A program made the position numbers and the translations under genes. From Pseudomonadota bacterium (GTDB lineage: Bacteria; Pseudomonadota; Gammaproteobacteria; Burkholderiales; JABEVD01): 64,000 nucleotides of DNA. The notes under the pieces were generated by a model. That model made no database searches, was not told the DNA's origin, and worked only from the letters and a program-made list of their open reading frames with translations. Position 1 is the stretch's first letter. Each line of letters starts with the position of its first letter. The stretch covers positions 131,129 to 195,128 of the forward strand of contig JAJZTQ010000002.1 in the NCBI GenBank assembly GCA_021848825.1, given 5' to 3'. Of the stretch, positions 41,212 to 57,500 are shown one piece after another.

Positions 41212-41236
41212 TGGAATGTCGCCTGGTTGTTATAAT
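41208..41236 (+). promoter_or_regulatory. Promoter of the alpha operon (rpsM)
   Basis: -35 TTGATG (41208-41213), 17-base spacer, extended -10 TGTTATAAT with a perfect TATAAT at 41231-41236. The -35 overlaps the rpmJ TGA. The predicted leader is about 25 bases. Confidence 0.8.
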
Positions 41237-41265
41237 AATCAATTTTTCTAAGTTGGAGTGATCGA

Positions 41266-41619
41266 ATGGCCCGGATAGCAGGGGTTAACATTCCGAATCA
41301 TCAGCATGCTGAAATCGCGTTGACCGCGATTTACGGTGTTGGTCGCACTCGGGCACGTCAAATTTGCGCTGCAGCAGGGGTGAATGCTTCGGCCAAGATC
41401 AAGGATCTGAGCGAAGCGGAAGTCGAGAAGCTGCGTGACCAGGTGGCGCAATTCACGGTGGAAGGCGATCTTCGCCGCGAAGTGTCCATGAACATCAAGC
41501 GTCTTATGGACCTCGGCTGCTACCGTGGGTTGAGGCACAGGCGCGGTCTTCCGGTGCGCGGGCAGCGCACCAGGACAAATGCCAGGACCCGCAAGGGACC
41601 TCGCAAGTCCGCGAAATAA
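41266..41619 (+). CDS. rpsM: 30S ribosomal protein S13
   Basis: 117 residues. A head protein that bridges to the 50S and contacts P-site t[32 protein letters not shown] and [25 protein letters not shown] are typical. First gene of the alpha segment, behind its own promoter. Confidence 0.99.
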
Positions 41620-49960: not shown

Positions 49961-51349
49961 ATGAGAAAATCGAACAACGGGGAAAGCATGACGCCACTGG
50001 AGCGCCGGGCGAGCATGGGACTGGCAGGCATCTTCGGGCTCAGGATGCTGGGCATGTTCCTGATTCTGCCGGTATTCGCGATTTATGCGAAATCGCTTCC
50101 CGGGGGCGAGAACCATGTATTGATAGGATTGGCGCTCGGCATGTACGGGCTCACCCAGGCGCTTCTGCAGCTGCCCTTCGGCATGGCCTCAGACAGGTTC
50201 GGCAGGAAGCCCGTGATCTATTTCGGTCTTGCAGTCTTTGCGCTGGGGAGCTTCGTCGCCTATTCGGCGCACGACATCTACTGGATCATCATCGGTCGAG
50301 CTATCCAGGGCGCAGGCGCGATCTCTGCGGCGATCACGGCGCTTCTCGCCGACCTGACAAGGGAAGAGCACAGGACGAAGGCGATGGCGATGATAGGGAC
50401 GACGATAGGCATGACTTTCGCGGTCTCGATGGCCGTGAGCCCCATCATCTACCAGATGATAGGCGTTCCGGGCATGTTCGCCCTGACAGGCGTTCTTTCC
50501 ATCCTGGCGATCTTGGTCGTGGCGAAAATGATCCCGGACCCGGGGAAGAGCGTTTTCCACTCGGATGCGGAGGTTTCGACATCCAGGCTTTCAGGGGTGC
50601 TGAAGAATGCCCAGCTTCTGAGGCTCGATTTCGGCATCTTCAGCCTCCATTCCGCCCAGATGGCGATGTTCGTCGTGATTCCTTCTGCGCTGATCACATC
50701 GGGGCATCTGCCTGAGGCGCAGCACTGGAAGATTTATGTACCGGTGATGATACTCGCCTTCGTGCTGATGGTGCCGATGATCATCTATGGAGAGAAGAAG
50801 GCAAAGCTCAAGAACGTCTTCGTGGCGGCGATCGTCCTTCTTCTCTTTTCCCAGATACTCTTCTCGATGGTGCTTTCCTCGTTCTGGGGAACCGTTTTTG
50901 GCCTGCTGCTTTTCTTCACCGCATTCAACATTCTCGAGGCGAGCCTGCCTTCCCTTGTTTCGAAGATCGCGCCTGTTTCGGCCAAGGGCACGGCGATGGG
51001 GGTTTACAATACCAGCCAGTCGCTCGGCCTTTTCACTGGCGGCGCGGTGGGCGGTGTTCTGGCGAGCTACGGCGGGCATTCTGCCGTATTCGTTTTCGGT
51101 GCTGCGATGAGCCTGCTCTGGCTCCTTGCAGCCGCGACGATGAAGGCGCCTCCCGCCATCAGGACGAAGATGTATCCGGTCGAAAAAATGGCCGAGGACC
51201 AGGCGAAGCTGCTGTCCCAGCAGCTTTCGGGTCTGGAAGGGGTGTTTGAAGCGGTCGTGGTGGGATCTGAAGGGGTCGCCTATCTGAAGACAAGCCTGAA
51301 AGGCTTCGACGAGGAAGGAGTATTGAAGCTCGCAGGCGTCAAGCCCTGA
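49961..51349 (+). CDS. yajR: MFS exporter of the YajR type
   Basis: 462 residues from ATG 49961; the ATG at 49988 (MTPLERR, after GGGGAA) is an equally good start. Twelve membrane segments. MFS motif A is seen as GMASDRFGRKP between helices 2 and 3. The sequence follows E. coli YajR closely (TPxERRA, FGLRMLGMF, LADLTREEHRTKAMA). The last 65 residues form the soluble ferredoxin-like YAM domain typical of YajR. Substrate is unknown. Its last 11 bases overlap the end of the convergent hemerythrin gene. Confidence 0.88.
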   Translation: MRKSNNGESMTPLERRASMGLAGIFGLRMLGMFLILPVFAIYAKSLPGGENHVLIGLALGMYGLTQALLQLPFGMASDRFGRKPVIYFGLAVFALGSFVAYSAHDIYWIIIGRAIQGAGAISAAITALLADLTREEHRTKAMAMIGTTIGMTFAVSMAVSPIIYQMIGVPGMFALTGVLSILAILVVAKMIPDPGKSVFHSDAEVSTSRLSGVLKNAQLLRLDFGIFSLHSAQMAMFVVIPSALITSGHLPEAQHWKIYVPVMILAFVLMVPMIIYGEKKAKLKNVFVAAIVLLLFSQILFSMVLSSFWGTVFGLLLFFTAFNILEASLPSLVSKIAPVSAKGTAMGVYNTSQSLGLFTGGAVGGVLASYGGHSAVFVFGAAMSLLWLLAAATMKAPPAIRTKMYPVEKMAEDQAKLLSQQLSGLEGVFEAVVVGSEGVAYLKTSLKGFDEEGVLKLAGVKP

Positions 51350-53180
51350 AAACCCGGTTGCGTCCCGAGCGCTTCGCCTCGTATAGCGCTTTGTCGGCAG
51401 TGGCGAGCAGGCTGTCGAGACTATCCTGACCGGACGAGAGCGTGGCCACACCGATCGATGCGGTGAAGGCGAGGACGCTGTCCGAGACTTCGATGCTTTC
51501 CCTGGCAAGCTGCTGCCTCAGCCGCTCTGCGGCTTCGAACGCCTGGGTCATGTCGGTTTCGGGGAGCAGGACCGCGAATTCTTCGCCGCCTAGTCTTCCG
51601 GCGATATCGATGCTGCGCATCGTCCTTTTGCATGTTTCGGCGAACTTCATCAGCACCCTGTCGCCTGTCTGGTGGCCATGCAGGTCGTTGATGGACTTGA
51701 ATTCGTCGAGATCGATCATCATGATGGAAACAAGGCCGCCGTACCTTTTGGCTCTCGCCAGTTCCAGTTCGGCAAGCTCGAAAAAGCGTCGTCGGTTGGG
51801 AAGGCCAGTCAGCATGTCCGTTCTCGCCTGATGGACGAGCTCATGCTGCAGCGTGATTCGCTCCGAAATGTCAGTTCCAAGCCCGACCAGAAAATGATCT
51901 CCATCGATCAGCATCTTGTGGTTCGTCAGGAAATAGGGAATCGACATGCCGCTTTTCGTCACGATTTCCGTTTCAAGCGCGGACTCCCCCTTTTCGAAAA
52001 CCTCGTTCATCTTTTCAGAGAACGCCAGCCTGTTCCTGCCGTCGAAAAGATCGAAGAGATTCCTTCCCGCAATTTCGGATTCCGCATAGCCCGTGACTTC
52101 GAGAAACTGCGGATTCGTCCTGACGATCCCGCCCTTGACGTCGACCATGTAGAAAATGCCGGGCAGGCTGTTGATGATGACCTCGGAGAATTCCTTCTGA
52201 TGGCTCAGCTCTTCCAGCGCCTGCTTTCTTTCGGTGATGTTTTCCTGGATTGAAACGTAATGGGTGATCTTCCCCGCCGCATCGAATATGGGGGAGATGG
52301 AGACATGGTCCCAGTACAGTTCGCCGCTCTTCTTCCTGTTCCGGAATTCGCCGCGCCATTCCTGTCCTGCGGCAAGCGCCTCCCTCATGTCATCGTACAG
52401 CCATTCCGGAGTCAACCCGGACTTCAGTATTGCGGGCGTGTGTCCGTCGAGCTCGTGGAAGGCGAAGCCCGTCATTTCCGTGAATTTCGGGTTCACATAT
52501 TCGAAAATCCCCCGGTCGTCAGTGATCAGGATGGAAACAGGGCTGTGCTCGACGGCATTGGAAAACTTGTGCAGTTCGTATTCAGTGAGCTTGTGGGCGT
52601 CGATTTCCCTTCTCAGGCTGCGGCTGATTTCGAACAGCTCATTCGTTTTTTCGGCGAAGCGATCGAGGAGCTTTGCCATTGCATTGAGGAGGGTTTCATT
52701 CGTTTTCGATTCGAAATGGACTTCATGCGCTTCGTCACGAGGCAATGCGGATTCGATGGCGAGATATTTCCGGGCCATGCGCATGTCCATGCCGATGATG
52801 TGCACGATCAGCCATTTTGAAAGAAAGCCGAGCAGTTTGCCGGCCGTCTCGCAGGGCGCGCTTCCCGCCTCGAGCCTTGCCTCCTCCAGATAACGCCTGA
52901 ATTCCTCGTGGCTCCGTCTGTGCATCGCTTCCTCCAGGGAAGAGAGCGCTGTAGGCATCAATTCTTCCTCGCGGCTGAAATGGAAGTCGGCATAGACGGA
53001 AAGGGATTCGATGATTTCGAGCAGCGATTGCCTGCAGTGGGCAATGTCTTTTTCGAGGAAAAGGATGCTGCCAATGGAATTGACGAGGTCGACGAGATGA
53101 CGATGCTGCCTGTCGAGTTCGGGCATCCCTGTCTCGAAATGGCTATCCCATGGGAAAATGTCCGGGTTGTCTGGGTGCAT
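51339..53180 (-). CDS. Hemerythrin-PAS-PAS-GGDEF diguanylate cyclase
   Basis: 613 residues, no membrane segment. Residues 1-140 form a bacteriohemerythrin domain. Candidate di-iron ligands are His26 (DRQH), the HxxxE pair in DFHFSREEELM, His in RSHEEF, and HxxxxD in VHIIGMD. After a linker come two PAS domains (about 205-320 and 330-440) and a GGDEF domain with GGEEF at 531-535 and inhibitory RxxD (RSID). The enzyme probably makes cyclic di-GMP under control of oxygen or di-iron redox state; known hemerythrin-GGDEF proteins behave so. No EAL domain. It is convergent with yajR (11-base overlap). Confidence 0.94.
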   Translation of the reverse strand: MHPDNPDIFPWDSHFETGMPELDRQHRHLVDLVNSIGSILFLEKDIAHCRQSLLEIIESLSVYADFHFSREEELMPTALSSLEEAMHRRSHEEFRRYLEEARLEAGSAPCETAGKLLGFLSKWLIVHIIGMDMRMARKYLAIESALPRDEAHEVHFESKTNETLLNAMAKLLDRFAEKTNELFEISRSLRREIDAHKLTEYELHKFSNAVEHSPVSILITDDRGIFEYVNPKFTEMTGFAFHELDGHTPAILKSGLTPEWLYDDMREALAAGQEWRGEFRNRKKSGELYWDHVSISPIFDAAGKITHYVSIQENITERKQALEELSHQKEFSEVIINSLPGIFYMVDVKGGIVRTNPQFLEVTGYAESEIAGRNLFDLFDGRNRLAFSEKMNEVFEKGESALETEIVTKSGMSIPYFLTNHKMLIDGDHFLVGLGTDISERITLQHELVHQARTDMLTGLPNRRRFFELAELELARAKRYGGLVSIMMIDLDEFKSINDLHGHQTGDRVLMKFAETCKRTMRSIDIAGRLGGEEFAVLLPETDMTQAFEAAERLRQQLARESIEVSDSVLAFTASIGVATLSSGQDSLDSLLATADKALYEAKRSGRNRVFRA

Positions 53181-53329
53181 GGATGATCTGAAATTGAATA
53201 ATTCTAACTATAACACCATCGCCGTTCGAGGTATGTTCGCCAGACAACATAGGGTGGGGTGAAGAGTTTCCGCCGATGAGATAGAATATTAAGCCTGAGG
53301 GAAGAATATCAATATAGGAGAAGCGTGAC

Positions 53330-53764
53330 ATGGCATCTGTGAACAAGGCGATATTGATCGGCAATCTGGGGAAGGATCCCGATGTGCGCTATTCCCCGGA
53401 TGGATCGGCGATCACGAACATCACGCTCGCCACGACGGAATCCTGGAAAGACAAGAGCGGGGAAAAACAGGAAAAGACGGAATGGCACAGGGTTGCGTTT
53501 TTCGGAAAGCTGGCCGAAATAGCGGGGGAATACCTGAAGAAGGGGAGCCAGGTCTATGTCGAAGGGCGCATCCAGACTCGGAAATGGCAGGACAAGGATG
53601 GACAGGACAGGTATACCACCGAAATCGTCGCAGACAAGATGCAGATGCTGGGAAGCCGCGGAAACAGCTTCGAAGTGAGCGATTCCCAGACCGAATCGAG
53701 ACCTTCGAAGCCCGCCCCCAAGACGGGCGGCTTCGACGACATGGACGACGACATCCCTTTCTAG
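53330..53764 (+). CDS. ssb: Single-stranded DNA-binding protein
   Basis: 144 residues. The N-terminal OB-fold ([53 protein letters not shown]) binds ssDNA as a tetramer. A short linker leads to the acidic tip DMDDDIPF that recruits repair and replication partners. AGGAG precedes ATG by nine bases. A TAGAAT at 53282-53287 might be a -10 but lacks a good -35. A terminator follows. Confidence 0.98.
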
Positions 53765-53782
53765 AGATTCGCTATCCGTCTT

Positions 53783-53810
53783 GAAAAGGCCCGCGAAAGC
53801 GGGCTTTTTC
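53783..53810 (+). terminator. Terminator of ssb
   Basis: Stem GAAAAGGCCCGC/GCGGGCTTTTTC with one G-U pair and a GAAA tetraloop (53795-53798), ending in five Ts. Confidence 0.85.
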
Positions 53811-53840
53811 ATTTCACGGGTAATGAGAATCAAGGACTGG

Positions 53841-53869
53841 TTGACACTTAATCGTTGCTTGAACATAAT
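53841..53869 (+). promoter_or_regulatory. Strong promoter of the small membrane-peptide unit
   Basis: Consensus -35 TTGACA (53841-53846), 17-base spacer, -10 CATAAT (53864-53869). Transcription should start near 53876, inside or just before the nested hairpin at 53871-53917. Confidence 0.75.
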
Positions 53870-53870
53870 A

Positions 53871-53917
53871 AACCATGAAGCAAATATGGTTTAGTAAAAA
53901 CCATTGTCTTCATGGTT
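53871..53917 (+). promoter_or_regulatory. Nested hairpin in the 5' leader of the small ORF
   Basis: Outer arms AACCATGAAG (53871-53880) and CTTCATGGTT (53908-53917) are perfect 10-bp complements. Inner arms ATGGTTT (53886-53892) and AAACCAT (53898-53904) form a second 7-bp stem. The element ends 19 bases before the AGGAG site of the ORF, so it may control translation, RNA stability or transcription. Confidence 0.7.
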
Positions 53918-53946
53918 GTTAAACCCGACAATAAAAGGAGATCGAC

Positions 53947-54045
53947 ATGGACATGCAAGCATACTGGACGTTCGGAATCAGCTGGTTCGCGGTTGCAGCA
54001 CTCACCATACTCACAAGCTGTTATCTCAAGAACAAGCAAGGCTGA
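53947..54045 (+). CDS. 32-residue single-span membrane peptide
   Basis: MDMQAYWTFGISWFAVAALT, then ILTSCYLKNKQG. The hydrophobic stretch of about residues 6-26 is long enough for one membrane span, followed by a basic tail (KNK). AAAGGAG lies six bases before ATG. It sits in its own unit: promoter at 53841, hairpin leader, terminator at 54073. I know no family for it. Possible roles are a small regulator of a membrane protein, an accessory subunit of a respiratory complex, or a type I toxin-like peptide; no antisense RNA is evident from reading alone. Confidence 0.65.
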   Translation: MDMQAYWTFGISWFAVAALTILTSCYLKNKQG

Positions 54046-54072
54046 AGCAGGGGAGAGACTGTTTCACGAGAC

Positions 54073-54104
54073 GAATGCCCGCGAAAGCGAGCATTCTGTT
54101 TTTC
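54073..54104 (+). terminator. Terminator of the small membrane-peptide unit
   Basis: 10-bp stem GAATGCCCGC/GCGAGCATTC with one mismatch and a GAAA loop (54073-54082 and 54087-54096), followed by TGTTTTTC. Confidence 0.8.
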
Positions 54105-54120
54105 GGGCGCCGCAGGTAGA

Positions 54121-54357
54121 ATGGCGTCTCATCTATCTGCATTTTCGAACAGCATGGAACGCCGCATCACAGGTTTTCATCAGGATTCGGAAAATCACTG
54201 GGTGGCCGAGCTCGAATGCGGGCATTTTCAGCATGTGCGCCATATCCCGCCATGGATCAATCGCCCATGGGTCCTTGAGCAGGAAGGCCGCTCTTCCTTC
54301 CTGGGAACCAGGCTTCAGTGCAAGAAATGCGATAACGGTTCTCCGCCGGATCGCTAG
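54121..54357 (+). CDS. DUF3565 family protein
   Basis: 78 residues from ATG 54121 (AGGT five bases before); the family block begins at Met12 (ATG 54154), so a 67-residue form is possible. MERRITGFHQDSENHWVAEL, CGHFQHVRHIPPW, NRPWV and the final CKKC are the conserved features of DUF3565. The histidines and cysteines suggest metal binding, but no function is established to my knowledge. It directly follows the terminator of the small-peptide unit. Confidence 0.85.
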   Translation: MASHLSAFSNSMERRITGFHQDSENHWVAELECGHFQHVRHIPPWINRPWVLEQEGRSSFLGTRLQCKKCDNGSPPDR

Positions 54358-54472
54358 TCATGAATCCCGGGGGATTCCTTGATAGGCGTTGCCTCGCAAT
54401 TTCCGTTCATTGATCTATAAAAAAAATTGAAGCATGGCGACTCGCCATCGATAAACGGAAAAGGGAGGTTTC

Positions 54473-54523
54473 ATGGAAAAGGTTCATGTCTCGCTTGCCG
54501 CAGTGGCGCGCGGGGCGCTTTGA
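54473..54523 (+). CDS. Possible 16-codon leader ORF before the sensor kinase
   Basis: MEKVHVSLAAVARGAL, stop at 54521-54523. GGGAGG (54463-54468) lies four bases before ATG, the best ribosome-binding site in the interval, while the kinase ATG at 54546 has none visible. It is in another frame and ends 22 bases before the kinase. It may be a leader peptide that couples translation; coding is not proven. Confidence 0.4.
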   Translation: MEKVHVSLAAVARGAL

Positions 54524-54545
54524 TACCTTCTGAAGATGGCCTCCG

Positions 54546-57500
54546 ATGGAATGGGTTTCACGGCTATTCGAGCATGCCCAGAGAGCAATCTCGGGGATTG
54601 CGATCGCTGTCGGCGTGCTTGTCCTCTTCGGCTGGGCTTTCGACATCCCGCTGCTGAAGGGAGCCATGCCGGGCTTGGTCTACATGAAGGCGAATACGGC
54701 CCTGGGCTTCATCCTGTCCGGGATTTCGCTCTGGTGCTTTAGGCCGTACCCATCTGTCTCGAAGACCTTCGCAGCCGGCGTGCTGCTGCTCGGGTTTCTC
54801 ACCCTTCTGGAATACGTGAGCGGCATGAATGTCGGCATCGACCAGATCCTGTTCAAAGAAATGACAAATCTGCCGGGCGACATACCGGGGAGAATGGCAA
54901 CCAATACAGCCGTAAGCTTCATGCTGCTCGGCATGGCGCTCTTCCTCCTGCATTTCAAAAGCAGTCGTCTCCCGCTGGTTGCCAATGCGCTCGCCTTCGG
55001 CGTGGTGCTGATAGGCGGGACTGCACTGCTCGCTTATTTCTACGACATCGAGGCCTTCCTGAGGGTCAAACTCAGCTACACCCCCATGGCGATCCACACC
55101 GCTGCAGTCTTCGTTCTGCTTGGAATCGGGACCATGAATGCGAGAGCCGATTTCCCGATGAGGCTGATGATGTCGAGCGATACCATTGCGGGAAGGGCGG
55201 CCAGGAGGCTGTTTCCGGCTGCAATCCTGCTCCAGCTCATGGCGGGCTATCTCATTCTGCAGGGCATCCGGGCGGGATATTTTCACGAAGATGCAGGACT
55301 GGCGCTCTTCACCACGGCGAACATACTGGGTCTGGGCGCACTGATCTATCGGGACATCGTCAGCCTCAACCGCTCCGAGATGGAGCGGAGCACGAGCGAG
55401 GAAAAGCTCAGGGCGTCATCGCTTTATGCGAGAAGCCTGCTGGAGGCGAGCCTCGATCCTCTGGTGACGATAGACCCCGGTGGAAAGATAACGGACGTCA
55501 ATAAGGCAGCCGTTATTGCGACCGGGATCGAGAGGGAAAAGCTGACCGGCAGCGATTTCTCCGATTATTTCACCGAGCCTGAAAAAGCGAAACGGGGCTA
55601 CAGGCAGGTTTTCGAAAAGGGGGAGGTCAGAGATTACCCTCTCACGCTGCGCCGCAATGACGGAAAACTGATCGACGTTCTCTACAATGCGAGCCTCTAC
55701 AAGGACGAAAGAGGCGAAGTCGCAGGGGTATTCGCAGCGGCGCGCGACATCACCGAGAGGAAGGCTTCCGAAAATGCGCTCGCCGAAAGAGTGAAAGAGC
55801 TCCAGGCCTTGTACACGCTTTCGGCGCTTGCGGAACGAAAAGACCTTTCCCTGAGCGAATTTTTTCAGGAATTGGCCCATATTTTGCCGCAAAGCTGGCA
55901 ATATCCCGAGATCGCCTGCGCGAGAATTTCAGTCCGCGAAGCCGAATTCAAGAGCCGGAATTTCAGAGTATCCGAATGGATGCAGCAAGCACCCATCTTC
56001 GCAGAGGGATCGGTCATCGGGAAAGTCGAGATCGGCTACCTTGAAAAAGAGCCCGAGCTAGACGAAGGCCCGTTTCTCAAGGAAGAGAGGCTGGTTCTCA
56101 ATGCTATCGCAGAGCGCCTCGGCCGCATCACGGAGCGTCATGATGCGGAAGCCGCGTTGCGCGCATCCGAGCGCTACGCGAGAAACCTTCTGGAAACGAG
56201 CCTCGATCCCTTGGTCACCATCAGCACCGAAGGGAAAATAACGGACGTGAACGAGGCGACAATCAACGCCACGGGCTTGGCGCGGAACAAGCTCATAGGG
56301 AGCGATTTCTCGGATTATTTCACCGTACCCGAAAAAGCGAAGCGGGGCTACAGGGAGGTTTTCGAAAAGGGAGAGGTCAGAGATTACCCTCTCACCCTTC
56401 GCCGCAATGACGGAAAACTGATCGACGTTCTCTACAATGCGAGCCTCTACAAGGACGAAAGAGGCGAAGTCGCAGGGGTGTTCGCTGTTGCACGCGACAT
56501 CACAGCTCACAAGGCGCTGGAGGAGGCGAGAAGGGTGAGCGAGGCGCGCTTTGCCACGATCTTCAATCAAGCCCCCCTCGGGGTTGCTCTAATCGATTCG
56601 CACACCGGCAGAATCTACGACGTGAACCCGAGATTTGCGGAAATCGCGGGAAGAAGCATAGAAGAGATGGTTTCGATAGACTGGATGAGCATCACCCATC
56701 CTGACGATGTCCAGAAAGACCTGGACCACATGGCGCTCTTGAATGCCGGGAAGATCCTGGGCTTCAACATGGAAAAGAGATACGTGCGCCCTGACGGCAC
56801 TTATGTCTGGATCAACATGACTATCGCACCCTTGAGGGAAGCGGATGTGTCCCCTCGCCATCTCTGCATGATAGACGACATCACGCAAAGAAAAGAGGCA
56901 GAAGAAGAGCTGAAGATTTACCGGGAGCATCTGGAAGAACTCGTCAAACAGCGTACTGAAGAACTCGAAGCCGCGAATGCCAATCTCAAGAAAACATCAG
57001 CCTTCCTCGGGAACCTGATCGAATCGATCCCCGAGCCGATGTTCTACAAGGACCGGCAAGGCGTGTACCGCGGAGGAAACGATGCCTTCTTCGAATACCT
57101 CGGGCTTCCACGGGGCTCGGTAGTTGGAAAGACCGTCTATGACATCAATCCGAGGCATCTCGCCGACCTGTACAGAAAGGCGGACGACGAGCTTTTCGGG
57201 AAGGGCGGGATCCAGGTGTACGAGAGCCGCGTGAGGTATGCGGATGGGGCAGAACACGACGTGATCTTCCACAAATCCATCTTCCAGAATCCTGACGGAA
57301 GCCAGGGCGGTATCATAGGCACGATACTCGACATATCGCAACGGAAGCAGGCGGAGCTCGAGCGGGAGCATCTTCTCGCCGAGATCGAGCAAAGGGCGCG
57401 GGCTGCCGATGAGGCGAACAAGGAACTCGAGAGCTTCGCCTATTCCGTCTCGCACGATCTCAGGGTTCCGCTGCGCGCGGTGGACGGCTTCTCAAAGATG

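Follow-up and report, generated by a model that had tools for sequence, protein, structure and literature searches.

Tiny membrane proteins are easily missed. Subunit IIa of the B-type (ba3) heme-copper oxidases, a single helix comprising 41 amino acids in Aquifex aeolicus (PMC3128077), was overlooked at first, and CcoM, a protein of 36 amino acids, is a subunit of the cbb3 oxidase of Pseudomonas stutzeri (PMC10433244). Short peptides with a single membrane span are also found among the type I toxins, to which DinQ belongs (PMC3567139).

The 32-residue peptide described here is encoded in a stretch of 64,000 nucleotides (in the following, the window). It resembles subunit IIa as a tiny single helix that was overlooked at first, and also in its putative oxidase partner, to which in the case of the peptide only co-distribution points. 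In contrast, subunit IIa belongs to a B-family oxidase and was shown by mass spectrometry, whereas the peptide has a bo-type oxidase as candidate partner, is encoded by an unlinked gene and was deduced from sequence alone. CcoM is of similar size and represents the kind of small oxidase subunit considered here, but it is part of a cbb3 oxidase. With DinQ-like toxins the peptide has its shortness and its single span in common; unlike type I toxins, it exhibited no common antisense promoter in a consensus scan, and eight of nine genomes of the genus retain a related peptide at a constant site. Among the listed titles and opening lines of abstracts on small membrane proteins and type I toxins, small oxidase subunits, bo3 accessory subunits and small proteins of Ferrovum or acid mines, none describes the peptide.

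A small transcription unit between ssb and a DUF3565 gene

A preliminary description of the window had proposed a complete small unit between ssb (53330..53764, +; PF00436, E 3.5e-43) and a DUF3565 gene (54121..54357, +; PF12088, E 1.7e-32), and all of its elements, namely promoter, hairpin leader, AAAGGAG, 32-codon ORF and terminator, were located where they had been placed. The sigma70-type promoter TTGACA-17-CATAAT (53841..53869, +) consists of TTGACA at 53841-53846, a spacer of 17 nt and CATAAT at 53864-53869. It had been called near-consensus, and it indeed matches 11 of 12 consensus positions. In a consensus scan of both strands of 53301-54600 (cut-off 9/12 positions, 0.7 sites expected by chance over this interval) it was the sole site. 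A core that is conserved in the genus, CTTGAACATAATAAACC (53858..53874, +), spans the 3' end of the spacer, the -10 box and the discriminator.

The promoter is followed by nested inverted repeats (53871..53917, +), which could form a hairpin at the 5' end of the mRNA, an operator dyad, or both. The outer stem of 10 bp is formed by AACCATGAAG (53871-53880) with CTTCATGGTT (53908-53917), and the inner stem of 7 bp by ATGGTTT (53886-53892) with AAACCAT (53898-53904). Folding of 53871-53920 yielded -20.1 kcal/mol (z -6.58), and none of 200 shuffled sequences folded equally well. The Shine-Dalgarno sequence AAAGGAG (53934..53940, +) is predicted to be mostly unpaired (probability 0.88). It precedes the ORF of 32 codons (53947..54045, +), encoding MDMQAYWTFGISWFAVAALTILTSCYLKNKQG, a single membrane helix with a basic C-terminus.

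The GAAA-loop terminator of the preliminary description is likewise present (54073..54103, +) and consists of 6 bp, one mismatch, 3 bp, the GAAA loop and the T tail TGTTTTT. The stretch 54066-54106 showed a z of -3.84, with 0 of 200 shuffles as good; the terminator was absent from the output of an automated terminator scan, presumably owing to the mismatch in the stem. The predicted transcript has a length of about 230 nt. Upstream of the unit, a terminator-like repeat was recognized by eye near 53784-53810, 3' of ssb.

Two other features of the window were recorded. The gene at 51339-53180 (-), divergent from ssb, encodes a Hemerythrin-PAS-PAS-GGDEF protein, which may be a diguanylate cyclase that senses oxygen or iron. 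An Alpha operon ribosome binding site RNA (RF00140) was detected at 41221-41298 (+) with 43 bits at a cut-off of 38.

Conservation and relatives of the peptide

The nine genomes of the genus are referred to as G000, which contains the window, to G008, and the peptide of the window and its closest relatives as type A. A search of related genomes for the 32 residues, as suggested in the preliminary description, detected type A in four of the nine (G000, G002, G003 and G005) but not in the remaining ones. Identities to the peptide of the window, by alignment or search, were 67-68% (G002), 69% (G003) and 65-67% (G005). The reading frame withstood this comparison: dN/dS ranged from 0.15 to 0.33 over the six type A pairs, and start codon, stop codon and a purine-rich Shine-Dalgarno sequence were recognized by eye in all four genes. 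Type A is a protein-coding gene under purifying selection. Fifteen residues are invariant in the four peptides (M3, A5, Y6, W7, F9, G10, I11, W13, A17, I21, L22, C25, N29, K30 and G32), and AlphaFold2 predicted one helix from residue 3 to 31 with a mean pLDDT of 86.6, using the alignment of the four sequences. These results support the earlier proposal of an undescribed single-span membrane peptide, and the gene in the window is a previously unlisted small membrane-protein gene. Residues 22-25 (LTSC) resemble a lipobox, but a lipoprotein was rejected: type C and some of the type B peptides (see below) lack the cysteine, the -1 residue is not conserved and the N-terminus is not basic.

Type A occurs at three unrelated sites, one of which G002 and G005 have in common. 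In G000 the gene lies between ssb and the DUF3565 gene and in G003 near a histidine phosphatase gene. In G002 and G005 an EF-hand-like gene is located on one side, and farther along the other side follows a gene which we take to be purL. Promoter, hairpin, ORF and terminator-like repeat stay together across the type A sites. All four loci possess TTGACA-N17-(C/G)ATAAT, and a GC-rich inverted repeat with a T run was found by eye at most about 60 nt past the stop codon in G002, G005 and G003. The pattern TTGACAN16-18NATAATNNACC occurs exactly once in each of the four carriers and is absent from the other five genomes; the reversed pattern, used as control, gave no hit in any of the nine. All 17 bases of the core CTTGAACATAATAAACC are shared by G000 and G003, unlike its flanks and the remaining leader; in G002 and G005 its position is taken by CTTCAAGATAATTAACC.

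Further peptides were detected in the genus. Type C is a diverged second gene of G000 (contig C49) with 29 amino acids, which shows 38-41% identity to type A and 48% to type B. It is preceded by TTGACA-N18-CATAAT and its own 5' hairpin; the pattern given above misses this copy, in which GACC is one base closer to the -10 box. Type B (33-34 amino acids), a more distant relative, is present in eight of the nine genomes, G008 being the exception. It is located at 94083-94178 of contig C40 in G000 (locus L047) and at comparable places in L048-L051, L053, L054 and L057, near a gene presumably encoding an HslU-like protein in 8/8 loci and near a radical SAM gene in 6/8. The type B peptides follow the pattern MDYMxYxxFG...D...IIL, and their upstream region is conserved but unlike the type A leader. 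Their dN/dS values ranged from 0.07 to 1.07 (7 sequences, 21 pairs), the maximum stemming from a close pair with few changes. Types B and C both have an Asp within the membrane span.

A fourth peptide of 34 amino acids, type D, is similar in look and occurs in five of the nine genomes (G000, G001, G006, G007 and G008); its matches only reached E 0.014-0.65, and homology is not claimed. At its loci (L065, L067, L068, L069 and L074), which encode a peptide resembling MADAIQFTN..., a mini-hairpin follows just after CATAAT, TGCCGAAAGGCA in four of them and TGCCGCAAGGCA in G008, and is followed by CGGAGCAA. Rfam showed no match to this mini-hairpin in the two loci scanned (L065 and L067).

Outside the genus, a search of the order (399 genomes, the genus included) revealed no credible match to the peptide. 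Matches were obtained in 25 genomes at E 0.0021-0.092, the lowest value being the best outside the genus, and none of the three that were opened resembled the peptide. A search of the class (369 genomes) likewise gave no credible match outside the genus. It yielded 62 rows outside G000 (E 5e-5 to 0.05), 38 of them in frames of 1029-1172 amino acids; three that were opened contained FG(L/I)FGL(A/S)GIVVNDSIILVTFY, which to us resembles RND transporters, and these matches were taken as chance likeness of membrane spans. Exact short peptide patterns, which reach close relatives only, hit three loci in the genome_contigs collection, all from members of the genus. Viral contigs, plasmids and phages gave no match to the peptide. 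Pfam, NCBIfam, PHROGs, PDB sequences and Rfam gave matches at chance level only, the best being PHROG 10061 (E 0.0034, two of 11 members) and the Pfam family V-ATPase_su_f (E 0.045); among solved structures no sequence match to the peptides was significant (best E 0.75 and 1.1). By these sequence searches, the peptide family appears to be confined to one genus.

The nested repeats of the leader

The nested stems of 10 and 7 bp claimed in the preliminary description exist in the DNA; the full outer stem does not hold for the RNA if the transcript begins near 53876. With a start about 7 nt past the -10 box, i.e. near this position, 4-5 nt at the beginning of the 10-bp stem would remain untranscribed. 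A fold from 53875 gave only -11.6 kcal/mol (z -2.88, p 0.010), and a fold from 53870 gave -20.5 kcal/mol (z -5.59). Consequently, the full 10-bp stem would be a DNA dyad, and the RNA would retain a stem of about 6 bp plus the inner hairpin.

Five leaders, four of type A and one of type C, were folded from about +1. In all five, the 8th to 11th nt after the -10 box are paired as the 5' side of a stem, and the paired tetramers differ (GAAG, ATCG, ATCG, ACCA and ACAT). Shuffled leaders paired in the same register at a frequency of 0.14-0.22, and shuffles with this pairing and an energy at least as good occurred at 0.0047, 0.0167, 0.0247, 0.0700 and 0.0047; at most four of the five leaders are independent, as those of G002 and G005 are close relatives. 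This common 5'-proximal pairing with differing sequences favours a hairpin at the 5' end of the mRNA, as far as can be judged from predicted folds.

A different reading is that the repeats serve chiefly as a DNA operator, at which a repressor would bind AACCA/TGGTT half-sites over the discriminator and the start, the RNA hairpin being a by-product. It concerns the leader alone and is compatible with any function of the peptide. The AACC in the discriminator is probably untranscribed, yet ACC is invariant in all five leaders; it is complementary to GGTT in G000 and G005 and to GGTC in G002. Moreover, the conservation of CTTSAASATAATWAACC exceeds the need of sigma70, and folds starting directly after the -10 box had a better z in each type A leader but not in that of type C. 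On the other hand, the inner part of the outer arm varies (the tetramers listed above) and still keeps its complement, which an operator does not need, the right half-sites are decayed in G003 and type C, and the exact promoter pattern occurs at no other place in the nine genomes. A role chiefly as operator is rather unlikely. An ACC that is invariant but probably lies outside the transcript, in the discriminator, would nevertheless suit an operator, and hairpin and operator may both be true.

Over the whole leader, folds were weaker than those of the hairpins (p 0.027, 0.197, 0.332 and 0.288 for type A; 0.048 for type C). The unpaired probability of the Shine-Dalgarno sequence in the leaders other than that of G000 was only 0.62, 0.57, 0.20 and 0.44, and the start codon of G000 is itself predicted to be paired (0.09 unpaired). 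Hence, efficient translation can only be presumed, and no switch is claimed.

The RNA itself had been offered as an mRNA, a regulatory RNA or both. The conserved frame speaks for the mRNA; apart from the leader hairpin, nothing speaks for a regulatory role. That the unit specifies a non-coding or dual-function regulatory RNA with an incidental ORF is hardly credible, since the stable 5' hairpin, the terminator and the predicted transcript of about 230 nt are outweighed by purifying selection on the frame, a mean column identity of only 64% among the four type A leaders, and the lack of an Rfam family in the leader of the window (gathering level) and in the five leaders (E 5).

Candidate partners and functions of the peptide

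The preliminary description had left three functions side by side: a small membrane regulator, a respiratory accessory subunit and a type I toxin-like peptide. The second gained some support from the distribution of the bo-type quinol oxidase. Long COX1 genes (648-674 amino acids as called) were found in G000 (two), G002, G003 and G005, exactly the carriers of type A, and all five exceed the cut-off of TIGR02843, which identifies them as CyoB. Thus, presence of type A equals presence of CyoB in 9/9 genomes; the weight of this match is limited, because nine genomes, four of them 82-89% complete, are few and many accessory families could share a 4/9 pattern. All nine genomes contain additional weak partial COX1 hits, and the longer ones in G002 (397-aa frame) and G008 (481-aa frame) are putatively of the cbb3 type. 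If type C is counted with type A, the copy numbers match as well (two cyoB and two peptides in G000, one of each in G002, G003 and G005), although type C is nearer to type B by sequence, so that this match depends on grouping C with A by architecture.

On a small tree built from four concatenated proteins, for which some data were missing, the distribution of type A and CyoB requires three or more concordant changes. Neither of the two is present in G004, the sister of G000 in this tree (support 92), in G008, or in the clade of G001, G006 and G007; G008 was placed with G002 and G005 (support 57). Other genes did not match the type A pattern: cydA (7/9 genomes), nifH (PF00142 matches in 9/9, strong with E below 1e-100 in 7/9), the EF-hand-like protein (6/9) and DUF3565 (1/9). 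Also in favour of the oxidase, the cyd operon of G000 and G008 already contains a CydX-like ORF of its own, and the cyo operons yielded no comparable small ORF in a filtered scan of the cyo stretches.

The genomic context is less favourable to an oxidase partner. In the loci read, type A is not linked to cyo, and the five regions upstream of cyoA that were read have no promoter or leader sequence in common with the peptide genes. The peptides also do not mirror the two CyoB subtypes, as those of G002 and G005 are near type A (67% to G000 type A, 38-41% to type C) and their CyoB proteins are near the second copy of G000 (72-73%, about 64% to the first). In addition, the presence of type B in eight of nine genomes with or without cyo counts against the link. 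In G000 (contig C10, L134), G002 (C60, L137) and G005 (C169, L136), a bo oxidase locus of a second type was observed, which comprises only genes resembling cyoA and cyoB; cyoC, cyoD and cyoE were not called beside them in the stretches read.

MAG 21 from the Cabin Branch acid mine drainage, an unclassified member of the Burkholderiales, is described as having a bo- or bd-type oxidase, form II RuBisCO, N2 fixation and possibly Cyc2 (PMC8357290). It may be a type A carrier of the genus.

Two other partners were considered and rejected. The peptide resembles CydX/YbgT of the bd oxidase, which we take to be covered by PF08173, as a small single-span protein with a superficial likeness in an N-terminal aromatic-Gly motif. 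However, the profile was unmatched in all 11 members at E 10 (within the HMMER filters), and type A lies outside the cydAB operon and does not track cydA. An ORF that presumably corresponds to CydX (MWYFSWILGVGLAMAFGIINVLWLEAEYF...) lies directly 3' of cydB in the two genomes examined, G000 and G008 (L140, 4515-4652; L141, 5093-5230). The EF-hand-like protein, whose Pfam match is weak and below the cut-off, is encoded next to type C in G000. In G002 and G005 its gene lies near type A, but the side is not the same, and in G003, G007 and G008 no peptide of this sort was detected beside it by a pattern search; the proximity was regarded as coincidence.

Taken at its most specific, the peptide would be an accessory helix of the bo-type quinol oxidase, which is a tentative assignment. 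The strong-looking sigma70 promoter would give a short monocistronic mRNA with its 5' end closed in the hairpin, probably protecting it from 5'-end-dependent decay, and AAAGGAG outside the hairpin would drive translation. The product would span the membrane as a single helix and, judging from its charge, keep the basic tail on the cytoplasmic side. This helix might then pack against the bo-type ubiquinol oxidase, stabilise it or help to assemble it, comparable to the part that tiny helices play in other oxidases, even though the gene lies away from the oxidase operon. The fuller proposal of an unknown extra subunit or assembly helix of this oxidase, encoded in trans and gained and lost with it in a genus of acid-mine Burkholderiales, is a little more doubtful still.

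About as likely, but broader and less specific, is a free-standing small membrane protein that, like known small membrane regulators, tunes another membrane protein or the envelope under stress, the match to cyo being ecological or accidental; the chances of this fall not far short of even. The stand-alone unit at three unrelated sites would fit such a regulator, as would the Asp in the span of types B and C and the existence of further peptides (the related B in eight of nine genomes and C in G000, the similar-looking D in five). So would the finding that, in the loci read, the types do not share a neighbour other than the EF-hand-like gene, which lies near C and, in G002 and G005, near A. 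The 9/9 match of type A and CyoB stands against it, and neither a partner nor an inducing condition of such a regulator was identified.

The third function, a membrane-damaging type I toxin held down by an antisense RNA, gained no support and is very unlikely. A toxin would be in keeping with the size, the single hydrophobic span and the basic tail, with the structure in the 5' leader, and with the additional copies and the unlinked sites. But G000, G003 and the type C locus have no sigma70-like promoter with at least 9/12 positions on the opposite strand, where weak ones could be missed, and the sole one in G002 and G005 does not overlap the gene but lies upstream of it at -121, in divergent orientation. 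Plasmids, phages and viral contigs contained no match, and type B stays near the same HslU-like gene in 8/8 loci.

The named records of the lineage are metagenome bins, and the peptide represents a family in which selection has been measured, the expression architecture recurs and the proposed partner can be tested. Should the oxidase assignment prove true, the bo-type oxidase, which serves as a model proton pump, would possess a helix specific to this lineage and comparable to those known from other types of oxidase, and co-distribution could be used to assign small genes that are not linked to their partners.
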